Shown: positions 5 through 35,994 of the stretch, in pieces
Position numbering within the stretch: position 1 is the first letter of the stretch
Layout of the letters: each line of letters starts with the position of its first letter
NCBI GenBank assembly: GCA_031263295.1
Contig: JAISGC010000057.1
Span: forward strand, 1 to 35,994
Source of the DNA: Rickettsiales bacterium
Lineage (GTDB): Bacteria > Pseudomonadota > Alphaproteobacteria > Rs-D84
Direction: 5' to 3'
Length of the DNA: 35,994 nucleotides
Translations under genes and position numbers: made by a program
Notes under the pieces: generated by a model
Seen by the model: the letters and a program-made list of their open reading frames with translations, nothing else
Databases searched by the model: none
Told to the model about the DNA's origin: nothing

Positions 5-195
5 GGTGTTCCCCTCCTTTGGAGGGGTGGCATTTTGCGAAGACACGAAGTGTCGTAGCAAAATGACGGGGTGGTGTGTCCAACGGGCACAGCTCGTTAT
101 CGCCACCACCCCGCCGCCTTCGGCGGCACCCCTCCAAAGGAGGGGAACACCCGTTGGACGGCACGGCCAAGAGAAACAAAAACAGGGAGAAAACT
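5..195 (+). repeat. Palindromic repeat family A, inverted pair plus leader, copy 1
   Basis: GTGTTCCCCTCCTTTGGAGGGGTGG...GACGGGGTGGTG followed by the inverted CCACCACCCCGCCGCCTTCGGCGGCACCCCTCCAAAGGAGGGGAACAC. The leader aacaaaaacagggagaaaa(c/a)tATG is shared with copy 2 at 31973-32165. Confidence 0.85.
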
Positions 196-735
196 ATGAA
201 AAAGTTCAATTATCAAAGTGCAAAGTTCAATGATGGCTTGCGGGAGCGCAGAGGCGCATTCGGCAAGCTATCATTGAACTTTGCAATTTGCACTTTGTTA
301 TTTTGCGGCGACGCAGTCGCCGCAAAGCTTTGCATGCGAAATCCGCCGAACGGCGGGAAGTTCACCAGAAACCCGACCGCGAATATCTGGGCCAACGGGC
401 CCGACTGCATGACCTGGTCGACCGGCGAAAACAGCGTTTCGGCCGAAACCGACCCGATGAAGCTCTGCCCGAATGTCAAAATGCACGGGGAATCGCGTTT
501 CATTTGGTTTTATAATGCAGCCGGGGAAAATCGGCCCGTCGCCGGAGAAAGCGCGAGCACCGAACCGGAGAAAGGCAGTTGCCTCTGCAAGATAAACTAT
601 CCTTTCCAAACGAAGTGGTTTCTGGTCGGACCGGACTATAATAGTTCCAATACCTGCAACCGGTGGTGCGGCAGCCTGTCGGTCCGTCCGAGCGACAGAA
701 ACTTTATAAAATATATCGGATTGGGGTTTGATTGA
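196..735 (+). CDS. Small secreted Cys-rich protein; signal peptide encoded within a heptamer-repeat hairpin
   Basis: ATG at 196 follows AGGGAG. N-terminus MKKFNYQSAKFNDGLRERRGAFGKLSLNFAICTLLFCGDAVAA|KLC has an AxA-like site. The mature part resembles the 32166-32603 protein (AK(L/M)C, A-x-IWANG, C-x-C, C-x3-C spacing). Confidence 0.75.
   Translation: MKKFNYQSAKFNDGLRERRGAFGKLSLNFAICTLLFCGDAVAAKLCMRNPPNGGKFTRNPTANIWANGPDCMTWSTGENSVSAETDPMKLCPNVKMHGESRFIWFYNAAGENRPVAGESASTEPEKGSCLCKINYPFQTKWFLVGPDYNSSNTCNRWCGSLSVRPSDRNFIKYIGLGFD
212..297. repeat. TGCAAAG-type heptamer hairpin, copy 1, inside the CDS
   Basis: Left arm caaagtgcaaagttcaatgat; right arm atcattgaactttgcaatttgcactttg. The right arm is identical over 26 nt to that at 20371-20396. 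Confidence 0.85.
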
Positions 736-3770: not shown

Positions 3771-3862
3771 TTAATGACTAATGACTAATAACTAATGTCT
3801 AATTACTAATAAAATGCCGCCGATTAGACACTAGTAATTAGTCATTAGTTATTAGTCATTAA
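3771..3862. repeat. TAATGAC heptamer hairpin
   Basis: taatgactaatgactaataactaatgtctaattactaat ... attagacactagtaattagtcattagttattagtcatta. Confidence 0.88.
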
Positions 3863-3869
3863 AAACATT

Positions 3870-3943
3870 TGGAGGCCTGAGTCGGACTCGAACCGGCATA
3901 AACGGATTTGCAGTCCGGTGCATAACCCTTCTGCCATCAGGCC
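3870..3943 (-). tRNA. tRNA-Cys (GCA), CCA encoded
   Basis: Reverse complement GGCCTGATGGCAGAAGGGTTATGCACCGGACTGCAAATCCGTTTATGCCGGTTCGAGTCCGACTCAGGCCTCCA folds as a cloverleaf with anticodon GCA. Confidence 0.95.
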
Positions 3944-7887: not shown

Positions 7888-9528
7888 GTGAAAAATTACG
7901 ATGTCATTATTATCGGGGGCGGGCATGCGGGCGTAGAGGCGGCGGCCGCCGCCGCGAGGCGAGGGGCGCACGCGCTGCTTTTGACCAAGGCGGCGGCGGA
8001 CCTTGGGGCGATGAGTTGCAACCCTTCCATAGGCGGGCCGGGCAAATCCCAGATGGTCGGCGAGATGGCCGCACTCGGCGGAGTGATGCCGCGGGCCGCC
8101 GATGCCGCGGGCATTCAATTTCGGATGCTGAACGCAACGCACGGGCCCGCGACCCAGGCCCTTCGCGCGCAGATTGATCGCGATTTATATCGGGCCGCCG
8201 TCTCACGAATCACGAGCCACGAACCACGAATCACGATTGAATATGAATCTGTCGAAACACTCGATTTGGAAAACAAAATCGTCAATGGGAAATATCGGGC
8301 CAAGGCGCTGGTTTTGACAACGGGGACTTTTCTGAACGGCCTCGCGACCAGGGGCGCGGAACGCATCCCATCGGGGCGGCTGATGGACGATGGGAACTAT
8401 CAGGATGCGACGGCCGGAATATCGGAAATACTCAAAAAGGCCGGTTTTTCGATGCTGCGATTAAAGACCGGAACGCCCGCGCGATTGTTTGCCGATTCAA
8501 TCAATTTCGCCGTTTGCGAGGAGCAAAAGGGGGATGAGCCGCACGAATGGTTTAGTTTAGGGGTTAGGGGCCAGGGGTTAGGGGTTAGTTGTTTCATAAC
8601 TCACACAACGGAGGAGACGCACGATATTATAAGGGACAATATTGCGGCGGCGCCGATGTATAACGGGGGCATAGAGGGCATCGGGCCGCGATATTGCCCA
8701 AGCATCGAGGACAAGGTTATGAAGTTCCCCGAGCACCTGTCGCACCATATTTTCTTGGAGCCCGAGACGCGGGCGGGCGATGTGATTTATCCGAACGGCC
8801 TGTCGACTTCGTTCGGCGCCGATATTCAGGACCGGTTTTTGCGGACGATTCCGGGACTCGAAAATGTGCGCGTCGCCCGATACGGATACGCGATTGAATA
8901 TGACGCCATCGATGCGCGGGCTTTGCGGCCGTCGTTGGAGGCGCGGATGCTGCCCGGTCTTTTTTTCGCGGGCCAGATAAACGGGACATCGGGATACGAA
9001 GAGGCGGCCGCGCAGGGGCTGGTCGCCGGGGCAAATGCCGCTGCCTTCGCACTGGGCGGCGCGCCGCTCGAACTCGACCGGACCAATTCTATGATCGGCG
9101 TTATGATTGACGACATTACGACCCTCGGCGTCGACGAGCCTTATAGAATGTTCACCAGCCGCGCCGAATATAGATTGCAATTGCGGAGCGACAATGCCAT
9201 TTTTCGTATTGGACCGCGGGCGGTAGAACTTGGATTGCTGGCGCGGGATGTTTATGAACAAATGAGCAATGAGCAATTAGCAACCCGCAATGAGGTGGAC
9301 AAACTTTACGCCGGTTATATTGCGCGGCAGAATGCGCAGATTGAAAAAATGCGGCGGGACAAATTGGTCAAAATCCCGGTCGGATTGGACTTTTCCGCCC
9401 TGTCGGGATTGACCAACGAACTTGTGCAAAAGCTCGCGGCGGCGCGGCCCGACAATCTCGCCGCCGCGATGCGCATTCCCGGAATGACGCCCGCCGCCGC
9501 GATGGTAATCTTGTCCGCGATTAAATAG
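7888..9528 (+). CDS. mnmG: tRNA uridine-5-carboxymethylaminomethyl modification enzyme MnmG/GidA (shortened)
   Basis: GTG start; YDVIIIGGGHAGVEAA, MSCNPSIGGPGK, YCPSIEDKV.F, FFAGQINGTSGYEEAAAQG, EPYRMFTSRAEYRL, C-terminal RIPGMTPAAA. 546 aa. Confidence 0.95.
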   Translation: MKNYDVIIIGGGHAGVEAAAAAARRGAHALLLTKAAADLGAMSCNPSIGGPGKSQMVGEMAALGGVMPRAADAAGIQFRMLNATHGPATQALRAQIDRDLYRAAVSRITSHEPRITIEYESVETLDLENKIVNGKYRAKALVLTTGTFLNGLATRGAERIPSGRLMDDGNYQDATAGISEILKKAGFSMLRLKTGTPARLFADSINFAVCEEQKGDEPHEWFSLGVRGQGLGVSCFITHTTEETHDIIRDNIAAAPMYNGGIEGIGPRYCPSIEDKVMKFPEHLSHHIFLEPETRAGDVIYPNGLSTSFGADIQDRFLRTIPGLENVRVARYGYAIEYDAIDARALRPSLEARMLPGLFFAGQINGTSGYEEAAAQGLVAGANAAAFALGGAPLELDRTNSMIGVMIDDITTLGVDEPYRMFTSRAEYRLQLRSDNAIFRIGPRAVELGLLARDVYEQMSNEQLATRNEVDKLYAGYIARQNAQIEKMRRDKLVKIPVGLDFSALSGLTNELVQKLAAARPDNLAAAMRIPGMTPAAAMVILSAIK

Positions 9529-19642: not shown

Positions 19643-20401
19643 CTACTTCGTTATTTTTTGCACGGCGGAAGGGAACGACGCCGGCGGCACGCCGGTGCAT
19701 TCGGCGATTCTTGCGCCGCGGTCGGACAGGTCGATTTTTTTATCCGCGACGGCCTGCTCCGCGGCCAATTTCTGGCGAATAAGGCGCATCTGCGGCCCGG
19801 TCGACAACTGCTTTTCGATTCCGTCCATGGCGGCGGGGATGCCGGATTCGCTTTCGACGAAAACTGGCAGTATCTGCGCCGCGGCGGCCGCAAGCGATTT
19901 TTCTATGTCCGCGCGGTTTTCGCGGACGGCCGTCAAATGCGCCGCTATGTGCTCGTCCTCGTGAGCCGCAATCGCGAGCCACTCGCAGGATTCTTCTTTG
20001 TAGCGCCGGTCGATGAAAACGGAGAAATCCGAAAAGCCGATGGTCGCGGTTATTTTTTCTGGAAACACGCACCACCCGCCGCCCGCGTCCGGGCCTTCGC
20101 CATCCGAAGGATGGCTTCGGGTGGCAGGCCGAGCCGCAAAATCTATCTCGTATTCCTCGGAGAGGTTCGCCACAACCTTGCCGTGCAGAAGGCCTATGTC
20201 GACCTCGGACGGGAAAACCGCGACCGAAACGCTCGGCTCCTTGATTTGCAAGGACGGGACGGATTTATAGCGGGAGCATTCGTCGGCGAAAGCCGGCTGA
20301 ATTAGCAAAGTGCAAATTGCAAAGTTCAATGTAAGCCTGCCGAATGCGCGCAGGCGTTTTAACAAGCCGTCATTGAACTTTGCAATTTGCACTTTGCACA
20401 T
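19643..20401 (-). CDS. Secreted protein with HExxH-type motif (HEDEH); signal peptide encoded by a repeat hairpin; coupled to virB4
   Basis: ATG (20401-20399) overlaps the virB4 stop as TAATG. MCKVQIAKFNDGLLKRLRAFGRLTLNFAICTLLIQPAFA|DEC...EWLAIAAHEDEHIAAH. Confidence 0.75.
   Translation of the reverse strand: MCKVQIAKFNDGLLKRLRAFGRLTLNFAICTLLIQPAFADECSRYKSVPSLQIKEPSVSVAVFPSEVDIGLLHGKVVANLSEEYEIDFAARPATRSHPSDGEGPDAGGGWCVFPEKITATIGFSDFSVFIDRRYKEESCEWLAIAAHEDEHIAAHLTAVRENRADIEKSLAAAAAQILPVFVESESGIPAAMDGIEKQLSTGPQMRLIRQKLAAEQAVADKKIDLSDRGARIAECTGVPPASFPSAVQKITK
20072..20124. repeat. In-frame palindromic insertion in the HEDEH protein
   Basis: CCACCCG...GCCATCC-gaa-GGATGGC...CGGGTGG nested inverted repeat; encodes ~18 aa (ATRSHPSDGEGPDAGGGW). 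Confidence 0.6.
20305..20397. repeat. TGCAAAG-type heptamer hairpin, copy 2, inside the CDS
   Basis: Arms GCAAAGTGCAAATTGCAAAGTTCAATG / CATTGAACTTTGCAATTTGCACTTTGC are perfect 27-nt reverse complements. Confidence 0.92.
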
Positions 20402-25377: not shown

Positions 25378-26384
25378 AAACTATAAAAATATCCGGCGTA
25401 GGTGTTCACAGCGGAAAAAAATCCGTTATGGAAATAACGCCGACCAAATCCGGCGGCATAGTTTTTGTCCGTGACGGCGTTCGCATTCCGGCGAGATTCG
25501 ACAATGTCGGAAATGCCATGTTGAGGAACACCACCATCGGGACCGCGCCGAACGAAGTCCAGACCATCGAGCATCTGATGGCGGCGCTTTTCGTTTCGGG
25601 CGTCGCCGACTGCGAGATAAAAATCGATAATTCCGAGACGCCGATTCTGGACGGCTCGGCCGCGGAGCTGATAAAATTATTAAAACCAATTGCGGAAAAA
25701 AGCCGGGCGCCATACCTTGTTATAAAAAAGCCCGTCATTGCCAGGCAGTCTGAATCGATGAAAAAAATGCCGGTCCTTTTGAGGTTTTTATCCAAAACAG
25801 CCGGGTTTTTTAAGGGGCGAAAACTGGACGGATGGGTCGGGTTGTCGCCGGTCCGCGGGCGCAAGTTGGAGGTCGCTGCGCGCCTTATATATAAGGAGAG
25901 GATTATCGGCGACCAATCGTTCGGCTTTGTTTTCGATTACGACGACTTCGCGAAATCGGCCGCCGATTTTGCGAAAAATATCGCCCGGTCCCGGACCTTC
26001 GGAAAGGCCGGGGAATGGGAATGGTTGAAGGCGCATGGAATGGGCCGCGGCGTCGACGAGACGAATGTCATAGCGCTCGGCACAATCGGCGATTTGGAGC
26101 GGCTGCATAAAATCGGAATCGGGAAAGGCATAAAAAAAAGCGCGTTGAAGGCGCGCGGCGAAAACGAGGTCGTCGCGCTGAACGGGCTGTTTTATCCCGA
26201 CGAGTTCGTCCGGCACAAAATCATAGACGCGGTCGGCGACCTTTACACATCGGGCTTCCGCATAGTCGGAAAGCTTGAATCATACAAGGGCTCGCACGCT
26301 ATGAACAATATCGTTCTTCGGAAACTTTTCGCCGACCCGGAGAATTATGATATAATTTCAGAGAATAAGAGAATAAGAGAATAA
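25374..26384 (+). CDS. lpxC: UDP-3-O-acyl-N-acetylglucosamine deacetylase
   Basis: GVGVHSGK, QTIEHLMAALFVSGV, PILDGSAAELI, DEFVRHKIIDAVGDLY, GSHAMNN. C-terminus ENKRIRE* is encoded by the repeat. Confidence 0.93.
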   Translation: MKTIKISGVGVHSGKKSVMEITPTKSGGIVFVRDGVRIPARFDNVGNAMLRNTTIGTAPNEVQTIEHLMAALFVSGVADCEIKIDNSETPILDGSAAELIKLLKPIAEKSRAPYLVIKKPVIARQSESMKKMPVLLRFLSKTAGFFKGRKLDGWVGLSPVRGRKLEVAARLIYKERIIGDQSFGFVFDYDDFAKSAADFAKNIARSRTFGKAGEWEWLKAHGMGRGVDETNVIALGTIGDLERLHKIGIGKGIKKSALKARGENEVVALNGLFYPDEFVRHKIIDAVGDLYTSGFRIVGKLESYKGSHAMNNIVLRKLFADPENYDIISENKRIRE

Positions 26385-26478
26385 GAGAATGGAACTTGTT
26401 AAAAGGTTTTTGTTAAAAATTAAAGCACTGCGGTTATCGCAGGCTCCATTCTCTTATTCTCTTATTCTCTTATTCTCT
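26360..26478. repeat. GAGAATAA octamer hairpin cassette, copy 2
   Basis: (gagaataa)n gagaATGGAACTTGTTAAAAGG...GCTCCATTCTCTTATTCTCTTATTCTCTTATTCTCT. Confidence 0.92.
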
Positions 26479-26826
26479 CTTACCGCGTGCAGCAGCCCCA
26501 ACTCGGGCAATATCGACAATGCGACGATTCTAAACTGGGAAAACGATATGGCCACCAACGAGCAGTTCGTCAAAGATCACAAATACTGCCTCGGCGTCGA
26601 CAAGCCGTCCCATATGCCCCGCTCCCGCGTAGCCAAGCTTCTGATGCCGAATGCCGGCGGCCAGATGCCCGACTGGGAGGGCCTTTGGGTCACATTCCAA
26701 TCCAACGAAAATCGCGACATCCCCCAGCGATTCCTGATGTCCGCCCCGCCCGGCACAACCAGCAAGTCCACGGGCGCATACAGAAAATGCATGTTCAAGA
26801 AAGGCTATCTCCTCCGCGCCGAATGA
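26389..26826 (+). CDS. Predicted lipoprotein whose signal sequence is the octamer repeat element
   Basis: MELVKRFLLKIKALRLSQAPFSYSLILLFSLTAC|SSPNSG...; lipobox LTAC; ATG lies 4 nt after the lpxC stop. Confidence 0.78.
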   Translation: MELVKRFLLKIKALRLSQAPFSYSLILLFSLTACSSPNSGNIDNATILNWENDMATNEQFVKDHKYCLGVDKPSHMPRSRVAKLLMPNAGGQMPDWEGLWVTFQSNENRDIPQRFLMSAPPGTTSKSTGAYRKCMFKKGYLLRAE

Positions 26827-27853: not shown

Positions 27854-28477
27854 ATGAAAAGGTCTTTGCTCTATTTGTTTCTGACGCTCGCCGCGCTGGT
27901 TTATGCGGCGGTCAAATTCGCCGCGTCCGATTCGACCGCGTCCAGGGCGCGGATAATTTCCGACGGGCCGGTCGGCGAAAATCTCCGCGCTTTCGTTTCC
28001 GCGAATGTCGGCAACCCGGATTTGCCGCGCATCGTCGCCGATAACTTTTCCGGCGTCAGATTCGTCTCGGTCAGGAACGATATGAACGGGACCGCCGTCA
28101 TAACCATCCGGCACAAGAAGACCATCGCGGTCTGGACCGACGGCGAGAAATACTATCCGCTGCTTGAAAACGGCGCCCATTTGGACGCGCCTTTCGCGGC
28201 CCGGCCGCAGAGCGTGGTTTTCAAGGGCGCGGTGCCCGCGGATGTTTTGGGCATAATAAAATCGGTCGCGGCCGCGCCGCGGTTTTTCGCGAAGGCGGAC
28301 TTTTTGGAATGGGTGGAGGGTCGGCGCTGGAATGCGATTTTATTCGACAGGGCCAGGGTGATGCTGCCCGATCGCAACGCCGCCGCCGCCATCGCGAAGA
28401 TTGAATCGTCCGGCATTCTGGGCAAAAAGTTTTCCGTCCTGGATCTTCGGGACCCGGAGCGGATGCTGGTCAAATAG
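27854..28477 (+). CDS. ftsQ: FtsQ-like cell division protein
   Basis: N-terminal TM, VITIRHKKTIAVWTDGEKYYPLLENGAHLD, C-terminal KKFSVLDLRDPERMLVK; followed by FtsA-like. Confidence 0.68.
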   Translation: MKRSLLYLFLTLAALVYAAVKFAASDSTASRARIISDGPVGENLRAFVSANVGNPDLPRIVADNFSGVRFVSVRNDMNGTAVITIRHKKTIAVWTDGEKYYPLLENGAHLDAPFAARPQSVVFKGAVPADVLGIIKSVAAAPRFFAKADFLEWVEGRRWNAILFDRARVMLPDRNAAAAIAKIESSGILGKKFSVLDLRDPERMLVK

Positions 28478-28608
28478 GAGAATAAAGAATAAAGAATAAA
28501 GAATAAAGAATAAATAGCGGCGCGTTTGCAGGCAGAGCGCATATTGTTGCGTCATAACTTGTCGCCCGTGCATATTTATTCTTTATTCTTTATTCTTTAT
28601 TCTTTATT
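28478..28608. repeat. GAATAAA heptamer hairpin
   Basis: gaataaagaataaagaataaagaataaagaataaat ... atttattctttattctttattctttattctttatt. Confidence 0.92.
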
Positions 28609-28617
28609 AGAAGCATT

Positions 28618-30313
28618 GTTCGACAATAAACAGACATTTCTTGCGCTCGACATCGGGACCGGCGTGGTCCGCGCGTTCGGCGCCGCCGTCAAGGACGGGC
28701 GGGCGCGGCATTTTTCCTTCGCCGCGTCCGGGGGCGCGATCGCCGAAAATATCATGAACGCCGCCGACGCGGTCGAAAGGGAGCTCGGCGTGAAGTTCCG
28801 GGATGCGGCGATAACCGGCAACCTCGGGGCGGTCGAATCGGTTGTCGCCAAAAACGGCGTCGCCTTTCCGCGCGTTCGCGAAATAACCGAGACGGACGCG
28901 TTCAATGCAATCTGCAATTCGGCCGAGGTCCGCGGCAATCCGGGCATGGTCCTGCATCTTATACCGCTGCAATTTTCGGGCGCGGCGGATGCGGCCGATG
29001 GCGAGATGGCGCCGGGGCGGCCCGCCTTCGGGCGAGTCCTTTCGGTCCGGTTCAATATGCTTTTCGTCGACGGCGCCCGCGTGTCAGAAATCAAGCGCGC
29101 ATTGATGTCGGCCTCCATCCGGCCAGTCGGATTCTATGACCCGATTTATTTATTGGGGCTGCGCTATCACCAGAAAAAGCGGACGGAGATTTTCATAGAC
29201 TTCGGCGCATCCTTTATAAAGGCCGGGGTTATGACCGACCGCGGCCTGACCAAGCGGTTCGATGTCGCGGCGCCTGTCTTTTCGACCGACGAGAAAATCC
29301 GGCTGGCCGTTTTGGAGGACGAGCCCATGGGCTCGGACCGCTATGTCGCCGCGGCCGAAAATATCACGCGCCAGGATGTCTGGGACGAATGGGCCGCGGC
29401 GATGGGCGATGCGGTCGATATTATTTTGGAGAGAGCCGCCGCGCCGGGCGCCGCGATTTTCATATCCGGCGCGGGCGGAAACGCGGAGCATATAAAGTCT
29501 CTGATCCTTGAAAACAAAGGATTGGAGAATATTACGATATTGGATGGGTTCGCGGCGGCCGGATCTTTGGCGCTCCGCGGCGCGGGTTCCGCCGAACCGC
29601 GGTCTGCGACTGCCGCAGGCGGCGCCGCTCCGCGGCGGGCACCGCGCCGCGGGCGTCGGCCGCAGGCCGCGGCCGTTCTGCCGAGCGTTCTGAACTGGGA
29701 CATAAACAACGGATGGGTTTATAAGATGTTTCAGAACGCCGGAATAAAGCGGCTGCACATCGATGTGCAGGACGGCTTCTATACCGCGGCCGTTTCGGGC
29801 GGGGTGCCGGAATTGAAAAAAATCCGCGCGTTGTGGAGGGGCGGGATGCAGGTTCATCTGATGGTCGACGACCCGGCTTCGTGGGCGCAGGTCGTTATGA
29901 AAATCGGCGCGGATACTATTATCGTCCAGGCGGGGACGCGGAACGCCGAGGCCGCGATGACGAAAATAAAGCGGGCGGGCAGGCGGGCCGGATTTGCGAT
30001 TTCGCCGGACTTCGACATCAAAAAATTGCCGAGGCTGATGCTCGCGATGGCGGACGAGATAATCGTGCTCGCGGTCGCGCCCGGCCCGAGCGGACAGGCG
30101 TTCGGGGAGGCGGCGCTGGCGCGCATACGCGCGCTGAAAAACACGCGGACGCGATATAGGTTCGATTACGAGATAATCGCCGACGGCGGGATAAATCCCG
30201 AGACCGCGAAACTCTGCCGGGAAGCGGGCGCGGATGCGGTCGTCAGCGGAAGCTTTCTGCGCAACGCGCCGGATTTCCCGTCCGCGGTCGCGGAACTAAT
30301 TCATAATTCATAA
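28618..30313 (+). CDS. FtsA-like / ribulose-phosphate 3-epimerase fusion
   Basis: FtsA-like FLALDIGTGVVRAFGAAV...IFIDFGASFIKAGVM...IFISGAGGNAEHI, then Rpe VLPSVLNWD...KRLHIDVQDG...VHLMVDDP...IIADGGINPETA in one frame without stop. Start uncertain (track gives 28526; TTG at 28618 plausible). Confidence 0.75.
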
Positions 30314-30487
30314 TTCACAATTCATAATTTTCCCCACCCAAGTTTTTCTAAATCTCGCGGGCTTTGCCCGCTCGATAAGAAAAACTTTCCCGCCCCGCTG
30401 GACCCTGCGGGTCCGCGGGGCAGGAGGGAGCGCGACGGCAAGCAACAAATTATGAATTATGCATTATGAATTATGAATTATGAATTG
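30299..30487. repeat. ATTCATA heptamer hairpin surrounding a family C palindrome
   Basis: aattcataattcataattcacaattcataatt ... aattatgaattatgcattatgaattatgaattatgaatt. Confidence 0.88.
30332..30397. repeat. Palindromic repeat family C, copy 1
   Basis: CCCACCCAAGTTTTTCTAAATCTCGCGGGCTTTGCCCGCTCGATAAGAAAAACTTTCCCGCCCC; second copy at 33516-33585. Confidence 0.85.
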
Positions 30488-31972: not shown

Positions 31973-32165
31973 GGTGTTCCCCTCCTTTGGAGGGGTGGCA
32001 TTTTGCGAAGTCACGAAGTGTCGTAGCAAAATGACGGGGTGGTGATGAAGACAGGCACAGCGCGTTATCGCCACCAGTGCGTGGCCGCCTTCGGCGGCAC
32101 CCCTCCAAAGGAGGGGAACACCCGCTTGAAGGCATCGCCAAGAAAACAAAAACAGGGAGAAAAAT
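31973..32165 (+). repeat. Palindromic repeat family A, inverted pair plus leader, copy 2
   Basis: Near-identical to 5-195, including cgaag(a/t)cacgaagtgtcgtagcaaaatgacggggtggtg and leader aacaaaaacagggagaaaa. Confidence 0.88.
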
Positions 32166-32603
32166 ATGAGAAAATTATTTGCCGGAATCGCTCTGGTCCT
32201 TTCAGCACAAGGAGCGGAGAGCGCGAAGATGTGCAGGCTGGATAACTCGGGGATGACATACGCATACAATGCGTCCGCAAAAATATGGGCGAACGGGATA
32301 GGCTGCGGCGATACCGAAAAAAGCGGCGGCGCGGACCAGCTTTGCGCGACGCGAAAGATGTCGGGCGTCGGATGGTGCGCCGAGAAAGGATACACGACAT
32401 ATGGGCCGGCGAATGAAAACGAGGTTGGAAAATACTGCCATTGCAGAATGACTTGGCCGATTGAGGGCAGATGGATTTTGGGCTGGTATACCGGAGGAAA
32501 TAATGACCCGTTCACAGATGCGGCGGCCTGCGCCGCAAAATGCGCGATGGCCTGCGGTGCAGACAGCAGAAGCAATTTATTCTTGTTTATGGTGGCCGTG
32601 TAA
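32166..32603 (+). CDS. Small secreted Cys-rich protein, paralogue of 196-735
   Basis: MRKLFAGIALVLSAQGAESAKMCRLDNSG...ASAKIWANGIGC...YCHCRMTWPIEGRWILGW...CAAKCAMAC; same upstream cassette. Confidence 0.75.
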   Translation: MRKLFAGIALVLSAQGAESAKMCRLDNSGMTYAYNASAKIWANGIGCGDTEKSGGADQLCATRKMSGVGWCAEKGYTTYGPANENEVGKYCHCRMTWPIEGRWILGWYTGGNNDPFTDAAACAAKCAMACGADSRSNLFLFMVAV

Positions 32604-35481: not shown

Positions 35482-35583
35482 ACGCCCGGCCTTTTGCAAC
35501 GATTGCGATTATAACATTTTTTCCGCCGCCGCAAAAAATAAAGCAGTTGCCTGACAGGCGCATACTTTATTATAATGTTCGCT

Positions 35584-35901
35584 ATGGAAAGGTTCGAGAG
35601 TCTTGTTGGATTTTACGGCGCGGTCAAAACCATCGCGTCCGCCGTCTGCGTCGAGAAGGGCGGCATCGACATAGACAACTATGCCGGGCGCTTTTTTATC
35701 GCCGACTTGCTTGAACTTATCGTCGCATACGGCGAGAAGGCTGGCGCGAAAAACCTGGACGCCCTGCGCCGCGAATTGGCCGCCCGCGCCGCCGACATCA
35801 CTCCGACCAACAAGCCGATTTACGAGATGTCGCTTGAAGAGTTTGAGAAGTTTATAGGCGGCGGCTCCGCCGCCGAAGAGAATAAGAGAATAAGAGAATA
35901 A
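35584..35901 (+). CDS. Hypothetical protein
   Basis: Open frame MERFESLVGFYGAVKTIASAVCVEKGG...; C-terminus ENKRIRE* read through the octamer repeat. Confidence 0.6.
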   Translation: MERFESLVGFYGAVKTIASAVCVEKGGIDIDNYAGRFFIADLLELIVAYGEKAGAKNLDALRRELAARAADITPTNKPIYEMSLEEFEKFIGGGSAAEENKRIRE

Positions 35902-35994
35902 GAGAATGGAACTTGTCAAAAGGTTTTTGCATAAAATAAAAGCGGCACGCATATTGCGCGCTCCATTCTCTTATTCTCTTATTCTCTTATTCTC
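35878..35994. repeat. GAGAATAA octamer hairpin cassette, copy 3 (runs to window end)
   Basis: Same architecture as 26360-26478, with homologous loop ATGGAACTTGTCAAAAGGTTTTTGCATAAAATAAAAGCGG. Confidence 0.92.
35906..35994 (+). CDS. 5' end of a predicted exported protein/lipoprotein with repeat-encoded signal peptide (truncated by window)
   Basis: MELVKRFLHKIKAARILRAPFSYSLILLFS..., open to the window edge; same start context as 26389. Confidence 0.55.
   Translation, partial: MELVKRFLHKIKAARILRAPFSYSLILLF

Follow-up and report, generated by a model that had tools for sequence, protein, structure and literature searches.

Several described repeat systems bear on the signal peptide (SP) analyzed here. 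Like the repeats of this study, Rickettsia palindromic elements (RPE) are palindromes (~100 bp) of several families that occur in intergenic DNA as well as in frame inside genes of a reduced alphaproteobacterial genome, the reported inserts being in metabolic genes. In Yersinia, a dispersed RU-2/YPAL element is fused in frame to YPO1552 and forms part of its predicted SP, to which the SPs of the homologues are unrelated (PMC2759123). TAACTGA direct repeats, and cyanobacterial and LSSR heptamers, are 7-nt tandem units found near start codons in several phyla (PMC4679880). PARCELs (palindromic amphipathic repeat coding elements) resemble our repeats in being palindromic DNA with a patterned peptide as its product, which in many cases belongs to a membrane protein. 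In the open-access literature, we came across neither a report of SPs coded recurrently by repeats nor the argument, developed below, that such coding can be independent of frame and strand.

The window, that is, the whole stretch of 35,994 nt analyzed, is a contig of a fragmented 987-kb assembly (G000) of a gut-type Rickettsiales bacterium. Near its left end lies a forward-strand ORF (196-735) that codes for a Cys-rich, predicted secreted protein of 179 aa, with a predicted SP of residues 1-43 and a mature part, starting at K44, that matches the profile of the mature family. The ATG (196-198) is preceded by a Shine-Dalgarno-like AGGGAGAAAACT and closes a conserved leader, ACAGGGAGAAAA plus ATG (182-198, forward strand). 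In translation, the N-terminus reads MKKFNYQSAKFNDGLRERRGAFGKLSLNFAICTLLFCGDAVAA followed by KLC and the Cys-rich body. The initial annotation had claimed that an inverted repeat inside this ORF encodes the SP, and for an SP-like N-terminus this is borne out by in-frame translation and by hairpin scoring: the best inverted repeat of the SP DNA scores 22, compared to a maximum of 8 when that DNA was shuffled 30 times. The hairpin, here called type A, spans 208-303 on the forward strand and codes for the predicted n- and h-regions; it is an inverted repeat of 7-mers, with 28-nt arms (214-241/263-290) that are 93% complementary around a 21-nt loop, and an outer register at 208-230/281-303. The initial annotation was also right that the paralogue at 32166 (32166-32603, forward strand) carries an ordinary SP and no repeat: behind the same leader, its 20 residues read MRKLFAGIALVLSAQGAESA followed by KMC. 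A true start downstream of the hairpin, which would have voided the claim, finds no place in the data, as all type A copies agree in start codon, leader and frame.

Three things had escaped that first reading: a second palindrome in the same SP, the genome-wide dispersal of the hairpin, and other repeat families that do likewise elsewhere. The second palindrome, TTTGCGGCGAC-GCA-GTCGCCGCAAA (302-326, forward strand), has an 11-bp stem, compared to at most 6 in shuffles, and codes for the c-region with its AxA site (CGDAVAA, the c-region being DAVA-A). A search of the window against Rfam gave no family for the hairpin and matched only two tRNAs. Tat export through the RRGAFG of this SP was considered and rejected, RR not being conserved among the other type A copies. 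All in all, we regard it as highly probable that a dispersed hairpin repeat with 7- or 8-nt units has here been recruited, in one of its copies, as a predicted SP.

By following the leader motif, we gathered 45 family genes, so that the genome holds at least 45 Cys-rich paralogues with a common 5' leader; the 12-mer ACAGGGAGAAAA occurs 44 times in it and its reversed control not once. In 31 of the 45 paralogues the SP is read from a hairpin repeat, of which there are five unrelated kinds (A to E); in the other 14 it is ordinary and short. The unit is 7 nt long in classes A to D and 8 nt in class E. Class A (CAAAGTG/CAAAGTT) serves 8 leader genes, with a typical product MKKFNLQSAKFN...LSLNFAICTLLI; class B (GAGCAAT) serves 13, with MKNQISNEQRAMSN...LLLLIAHCALLI; class C (AATAAAG) a single one; class D (AACAGAG) 4, with MKKRTDNREQRI...IILFSVICSLFS; and class E, whose octamer is GAGAATAA, 5, with MKKRIRELENKRM...FSYSLILLFS. 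Hairpins of leader genes score 12 to 32 (at most 11 when shuffled), and the head-to-tail arrangement of 7-nt units gives 19 to 21 matches out of 21 at lag 7 in the clearest SPs. Repeat-coded SPs are 36 to 47 aa long, and ordinary ones 18 to 22 aa. All complete members have the sequence features of Sec SPs: a start of MK/MR or similar, a hydrophobic h-region (14-aa mean hydropathy of about 1.8 to 2.8), and, in front of K[LMF]C, a run of small residues of which the last is A.

In related genomes, the comparison that the initial annotation had proposed reveals ordinary SPs on members of the Cys-rich family, where readable. In view of these, the repeat-coded state looks derived; taken with the lack of any ordinary h-region remnant beside the repeat-coded one, they favor replacement of an ordinary SP by the repeat as the probable polarity. 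The initial annotation had left the choice between replacement and extension of a native signal, and both appear to apply, since the A-rich arm would lengthen the n-region while the T-rich arm would replace the h-region. The mature domain of the family found no match in Pfam, and its AlphaFold model (pLDDT 77) no PDB fold match at E<=0.001. The family is also expanded in genus g11 (G023, G031 and G036). One type E member (L022, C23:1689-2063), the SP frame of which is broken by TAA, is apparently a pseudogene. Another dispersed palindrome, GGTGTTCCCCTCC-TTTGGAGGGG..., adjoins many Cys-rich genes (window 5-29, 127-151, 854-879 and about 31979-32120); it may correspond to terminators or to a further repeat family.

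The repeats are not restricted to this family. They show two MITE-like traits, terminal inverted repeats and dispersed copies, and, as with RPE, the same palindromes were seen both between genes and in frame inside them. The census of repeats, made by pattern searches, is exhaustive for the patterns used for A and D, refers to the matches listed for B, and covers part of the genome for C and E; in it, the type A hairpin forms the N-terminus of seven further paralogue ORFs and occupies many non-coding sites genome-wide. In the window, a type C hairpin (2256-2336) is intergenic, and two further families of intergenic heptamer hairpins occur at 30294-30480 and 3772-3870 (AATTATG; TAATGAC). Intergenic copies (C10, C25, C96, C46, C47 and window 35575-35901) often abut the upstream gene or supply its stop or C-terminal tail (for example, ..VVVKKVQ* and ..AAEENKRIRE*). 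Heptamer-like stretches lie in frame inside MnmG/GidA, at 8202-8236 (SRITSHEPRITIEYE) and 9257-9291 (MSNEQLATRNEV). At 28472-28609, a type C hairpin covers the 5' end of an ORF containing ribulose-phosphate 3-epimerase; its T-rich arm is in frame and has no obvious cleavage site after it, so the true start of that ORF may be downstream.

Why such repeats read as SPs follows from their structure. Because neither 7 nor 8 is divisible by 3, successive units of an array are read in shifting frames, and the peptide comes out nearly alike whichever frame is used. Stops are few in the T-rich arm, whose product is hydrophobic, like an h-region; that of the A-rich arm is polar, like an n-region; and palindromy puts the A-rich arm first and the T-rich arm second on either strand. 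Given this independence of frame and strand, an element that lies at the start codon, or supplies it, 5' of a mature domain encodes an SP-like sequence. The T-arm peptides, FALCTLH from (TTTGCAC)n, LLIAHCS from (TTGCTCA)n, FSVLCSL from (TTCTCTG)n and ILYSLFF from (ATTCTTT)n, fall in the 0.90 to 0.97 quantile of hydropathy among open heptamers, and 46 to 84% of T-arm frames in leaderless copies have a mean hydropathy above 1.2, compared to 5.7% for window DNA. In types B and E, most A-arm frames of copies remote from the leader are closed (33% and 19% open, respectively). At the leader, the TGA expected from the pure unit has given way to CGA, CTA or TGC in each of the 13 type B SPs, and in type E copies the in-array TAA is replaced by TTA; read from the DNA, this removal of stops shows apparent selection for coding.

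Where the initial annotation saw a peculiarity of this copy, we find instead, beyond the 31 paralogues, predicted SPs encoded by these repeats at about 16 loci outside the Cys-rich family, obtained by scanning T-rich arms for downstream reading frames. Three are in the window. A second type A element (20300-20401, reverse strand) codes for the SP (MCKVQIAKFNDGLLKRLRAFGRLTLNFAICTLLIQPAFA) of a predicted exported protein of 252 aa (20401-19643), the ATG of which overlaps the stop of an upstream VirB4/TrbE-like gene. A type E octamer hairpin (26352-26478, forward strand) with its own ATG at 26389 forms the SP of a predicted lipoprotein, MELVKRFLLKIKALRLSQAPFSYSLILLFSLTA followed by C (26389-26826, forward strand), and another (35870-35994, forward strand), with ATG at 35906 (MELVKRFLHKIKAARILRAPFSYSLILLFS...), runs off the contig end. 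Elsewhere in the genome, type E provides the SP of LolA (PF03548, 9e-20, Pfam) and type D that of TolB (MKKLLSVLCSLFSVLYSASAE). Moreover, the lipobox directly follows the arm in lipoproteins at C20:9294, C16, C31 (with LysM) and C31:20.4k, as it does at window 26389; two outer-membrane-protein-like ORFs (C15 and C18) have their start codon within a type B loop, and a weakly SNase-like protein (C32) also has a repeat-coded SP. The 43-aa lipoprotein at C20:9294 was suspected to be LptM, which Pfam did not support. In type E copies the A-rich arm ends in AGAGA-ATG and leads into a common n-region, M[KE]LVK.F..K.K; both are found at five loci (LolA, the C32 ORF, window 26389, window 35906 and the end of C96), and the start codon comes with the element. 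Insertion can also affect the body of a protein: at C20:15.8 kb (L142), a type B element lies in frame inside Lgt (PF01790), between conserved parts (..FARKQQKLAMSNEQCAMGSRGRSLLIAHCSLHILDTLAV..), and is, judging by this position, an RPE-like insertion in an essential gene.

LolA and TolB allow the comparison to be extended to sister genomes. In G003, the mature part of LolA is 70% identical and the SP comes from a different heptamer hairpin (GTTTCAT); G018 and G008 use yet other heptamer hairpins, whose loop contains the ATG, G001 has a heptamer SP, and G017 has CATTGTTC arrays (CATTGTTCATTGTTCATTGTTCATTG, 27 of 28 matches at lag 7) with the T-rich arm only. LolA SPs look ordinary in G002, G011, G014 and G023. 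TolB has a similar pattern in G000, G008, G018 and G016, its SP in G000 having the T-rich arm only. With codon-shuffled controls, 7/8-nt periodicity (p<0.01) was found in 20 of 42 LolA/TolB SPs of the bacterial family, some of them weak (for example, G010 LolA) and possibly slippage-derived, compared to 2 of 48 when the SPs were taken from elsewhere in the order and class, outside this family (Fisher p 1.2e-6). Among public contigs, 34 contain the 18-mer CAAAGTGCAAAGTTCAAT; most of them belong to Alphaproteobacteria MAGs from rumen, gut and termites. One case is L235, of a termite-gut alphaproteobacterium, in which the arms of a heptamer hairpin are inserted in frame in an ORF that looks TrmB-like by eye (..DDVRKLFELCTLNFNKIYILHPDPWP..).

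From these observations, five repeat families have been recruited as predicted SPs in the Cys-rich family, and further recruitments gave LolA, TolB, lipoproteins and other proteins their SP-like N-termini. Elements would have reached these sites through insertion or local expansion, and the encoded N-termini of all these proteins would direct Sec export. A more ambitious reading, which we put forward tentatively and rate slightly below an even chance, is that they are mobile SP elements: dispersed 7/8-nt hairpins that may give export signals to the genes behind them, whatever the strand and nearly whatever the frame, some (type E) bringing their own start codon and n-region, and that would, time and again across the bacterial family, have taken the place of native SPs on universal envelope proteins.

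The Cys-rich genes themselves could be accounted for more simply, by a single ancient acquisition per repeat class followed by gene duplication only, with no exchange of modules and with mature domains diverged beyond recognition. Copies of a class share loop sequence and are hence related, so that 31 SPs do not mean 31 insertions, and nearest neighbors agree in SP class in 17 of 40 cases (9.4 expected, p 0.014), a weak clustering that also speaks for this explanation. We nevertheless consider it unlikely. On the maximum-likelihood tree of mature domains, SP class is scattered as if at random, needing 21 changes (minimum 5) compared to a shuffled mean of 22.0, although the tree is poorly resolved (1 starred branch) and the decoupling may partly reflect saturation. 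The SPs on four related mature domains with a GTGAP motif belong to four different classes (A, B, D and E), and unrelated genes are left unexplained. Moreover, c-regions of the LAPSAQA, GGGEADA and ALGNAQGA types are found across SP classes. SP DNA identity averages 83 to 89% inside classes A, B, D and E, and mature-domain amino-acid identity is about 29% both within and between classes; leader and SP are better conserved than the mature domains, and the modules look uncoupled. Exchange of modules thus stays the preferred reading, in which the family would have spread a leader-SP cassette through recombination or duplication.

Tandem slippage, rather than mobile elements, could also fill existing h-regions with T-rich heptamer arrays, hydrophobic low complexity being tolerated there. 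Units of 7 nt are the commonest longer satellites, and polymerase slippage has been proposed for them (PMC4679880); the arm-only LolA of G017 and TolB of G000 are of the kind expected. We judge slippage less probable still than single acquisition: it does not provide for full hairpins, for sequences common to several loci, for intergenic copies of the same families, or for a type E internal sequence conserved with its own ATG at five loci.

An action of the hairpin mainly in mRNA, just 3' of the start codon, where it would control translation or stability and the peptide would be incidental, seems improbable. Repeat-SP leaders do fold far below expectation from composition (mean z of -4.5 to -9.1, compared to -1.8 in ordinary paralogues), but around the ribosome-binding site and the start they are unpaired to the same degree as ordinary paralogues (0.70 to 0.86, compared to 0.78), and this speaks against a hairpin that acts solely as regulatory RNA. 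Against it also stand the removal of stops from SP copies, the TolB and LolA cases that have the T-rich arm and no hairpin, and the coded peptide itself, which ends in a hydrophobic core plus a small-residue c-region or lipobox in the Cys-rich family and the exported genes listed. Finally, a coincidental inverted repeat in a mispredicted N-terminus, an artefact that might be favored by the fragmentation of the assembly, some contigs of which end inside repeats (C38, C1 and C35), is refuted in the main, and has next to no probability left, by a frame and start conserved in eight type A genes, on many contigs, and by the same phenomenon in other genomes.

Recruitment of dispersed repeats offers a testable route from non-coding repeat DNA to a functional, here predicted, part of a protein, in which a unit not divisible by 3 and palindromy yield a polar head followed by a hydrophobic tail, almost wherever the element lands. 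Predicted SPs would have been replaced repeatedly even in exported proteins as widely conserved as LolA and TolB. A genome of ~1 Mb devotes at least 45 genes to a predicted secreted Cys-rich family in which SP and mature modules look uncoupled. On the practical side, repeat-coded N-termini may be misread by gene callers and homology tools.

Compared by description with RPE, the present repeats differ in their tandem units of 7 or 8 nt and in a predicted targeting role, as n- and h-regions of SPs, that recurs across genes. Enterobacterial RU-2/YPAL elements are reported at few loci and form one family, whereas here at least five unrelated repeat families serve dozens of genes, including universal ones, with a coding property that is independent of frame and strand. 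PARCELs are tandem domains of about 25 residues in the protein body, and not SPs. As for known heptanucleotide repeats, they are mostly direct, lie 5' of start codons and contain stops in translation, whereas those described here are inverted arrays inside the coding start.
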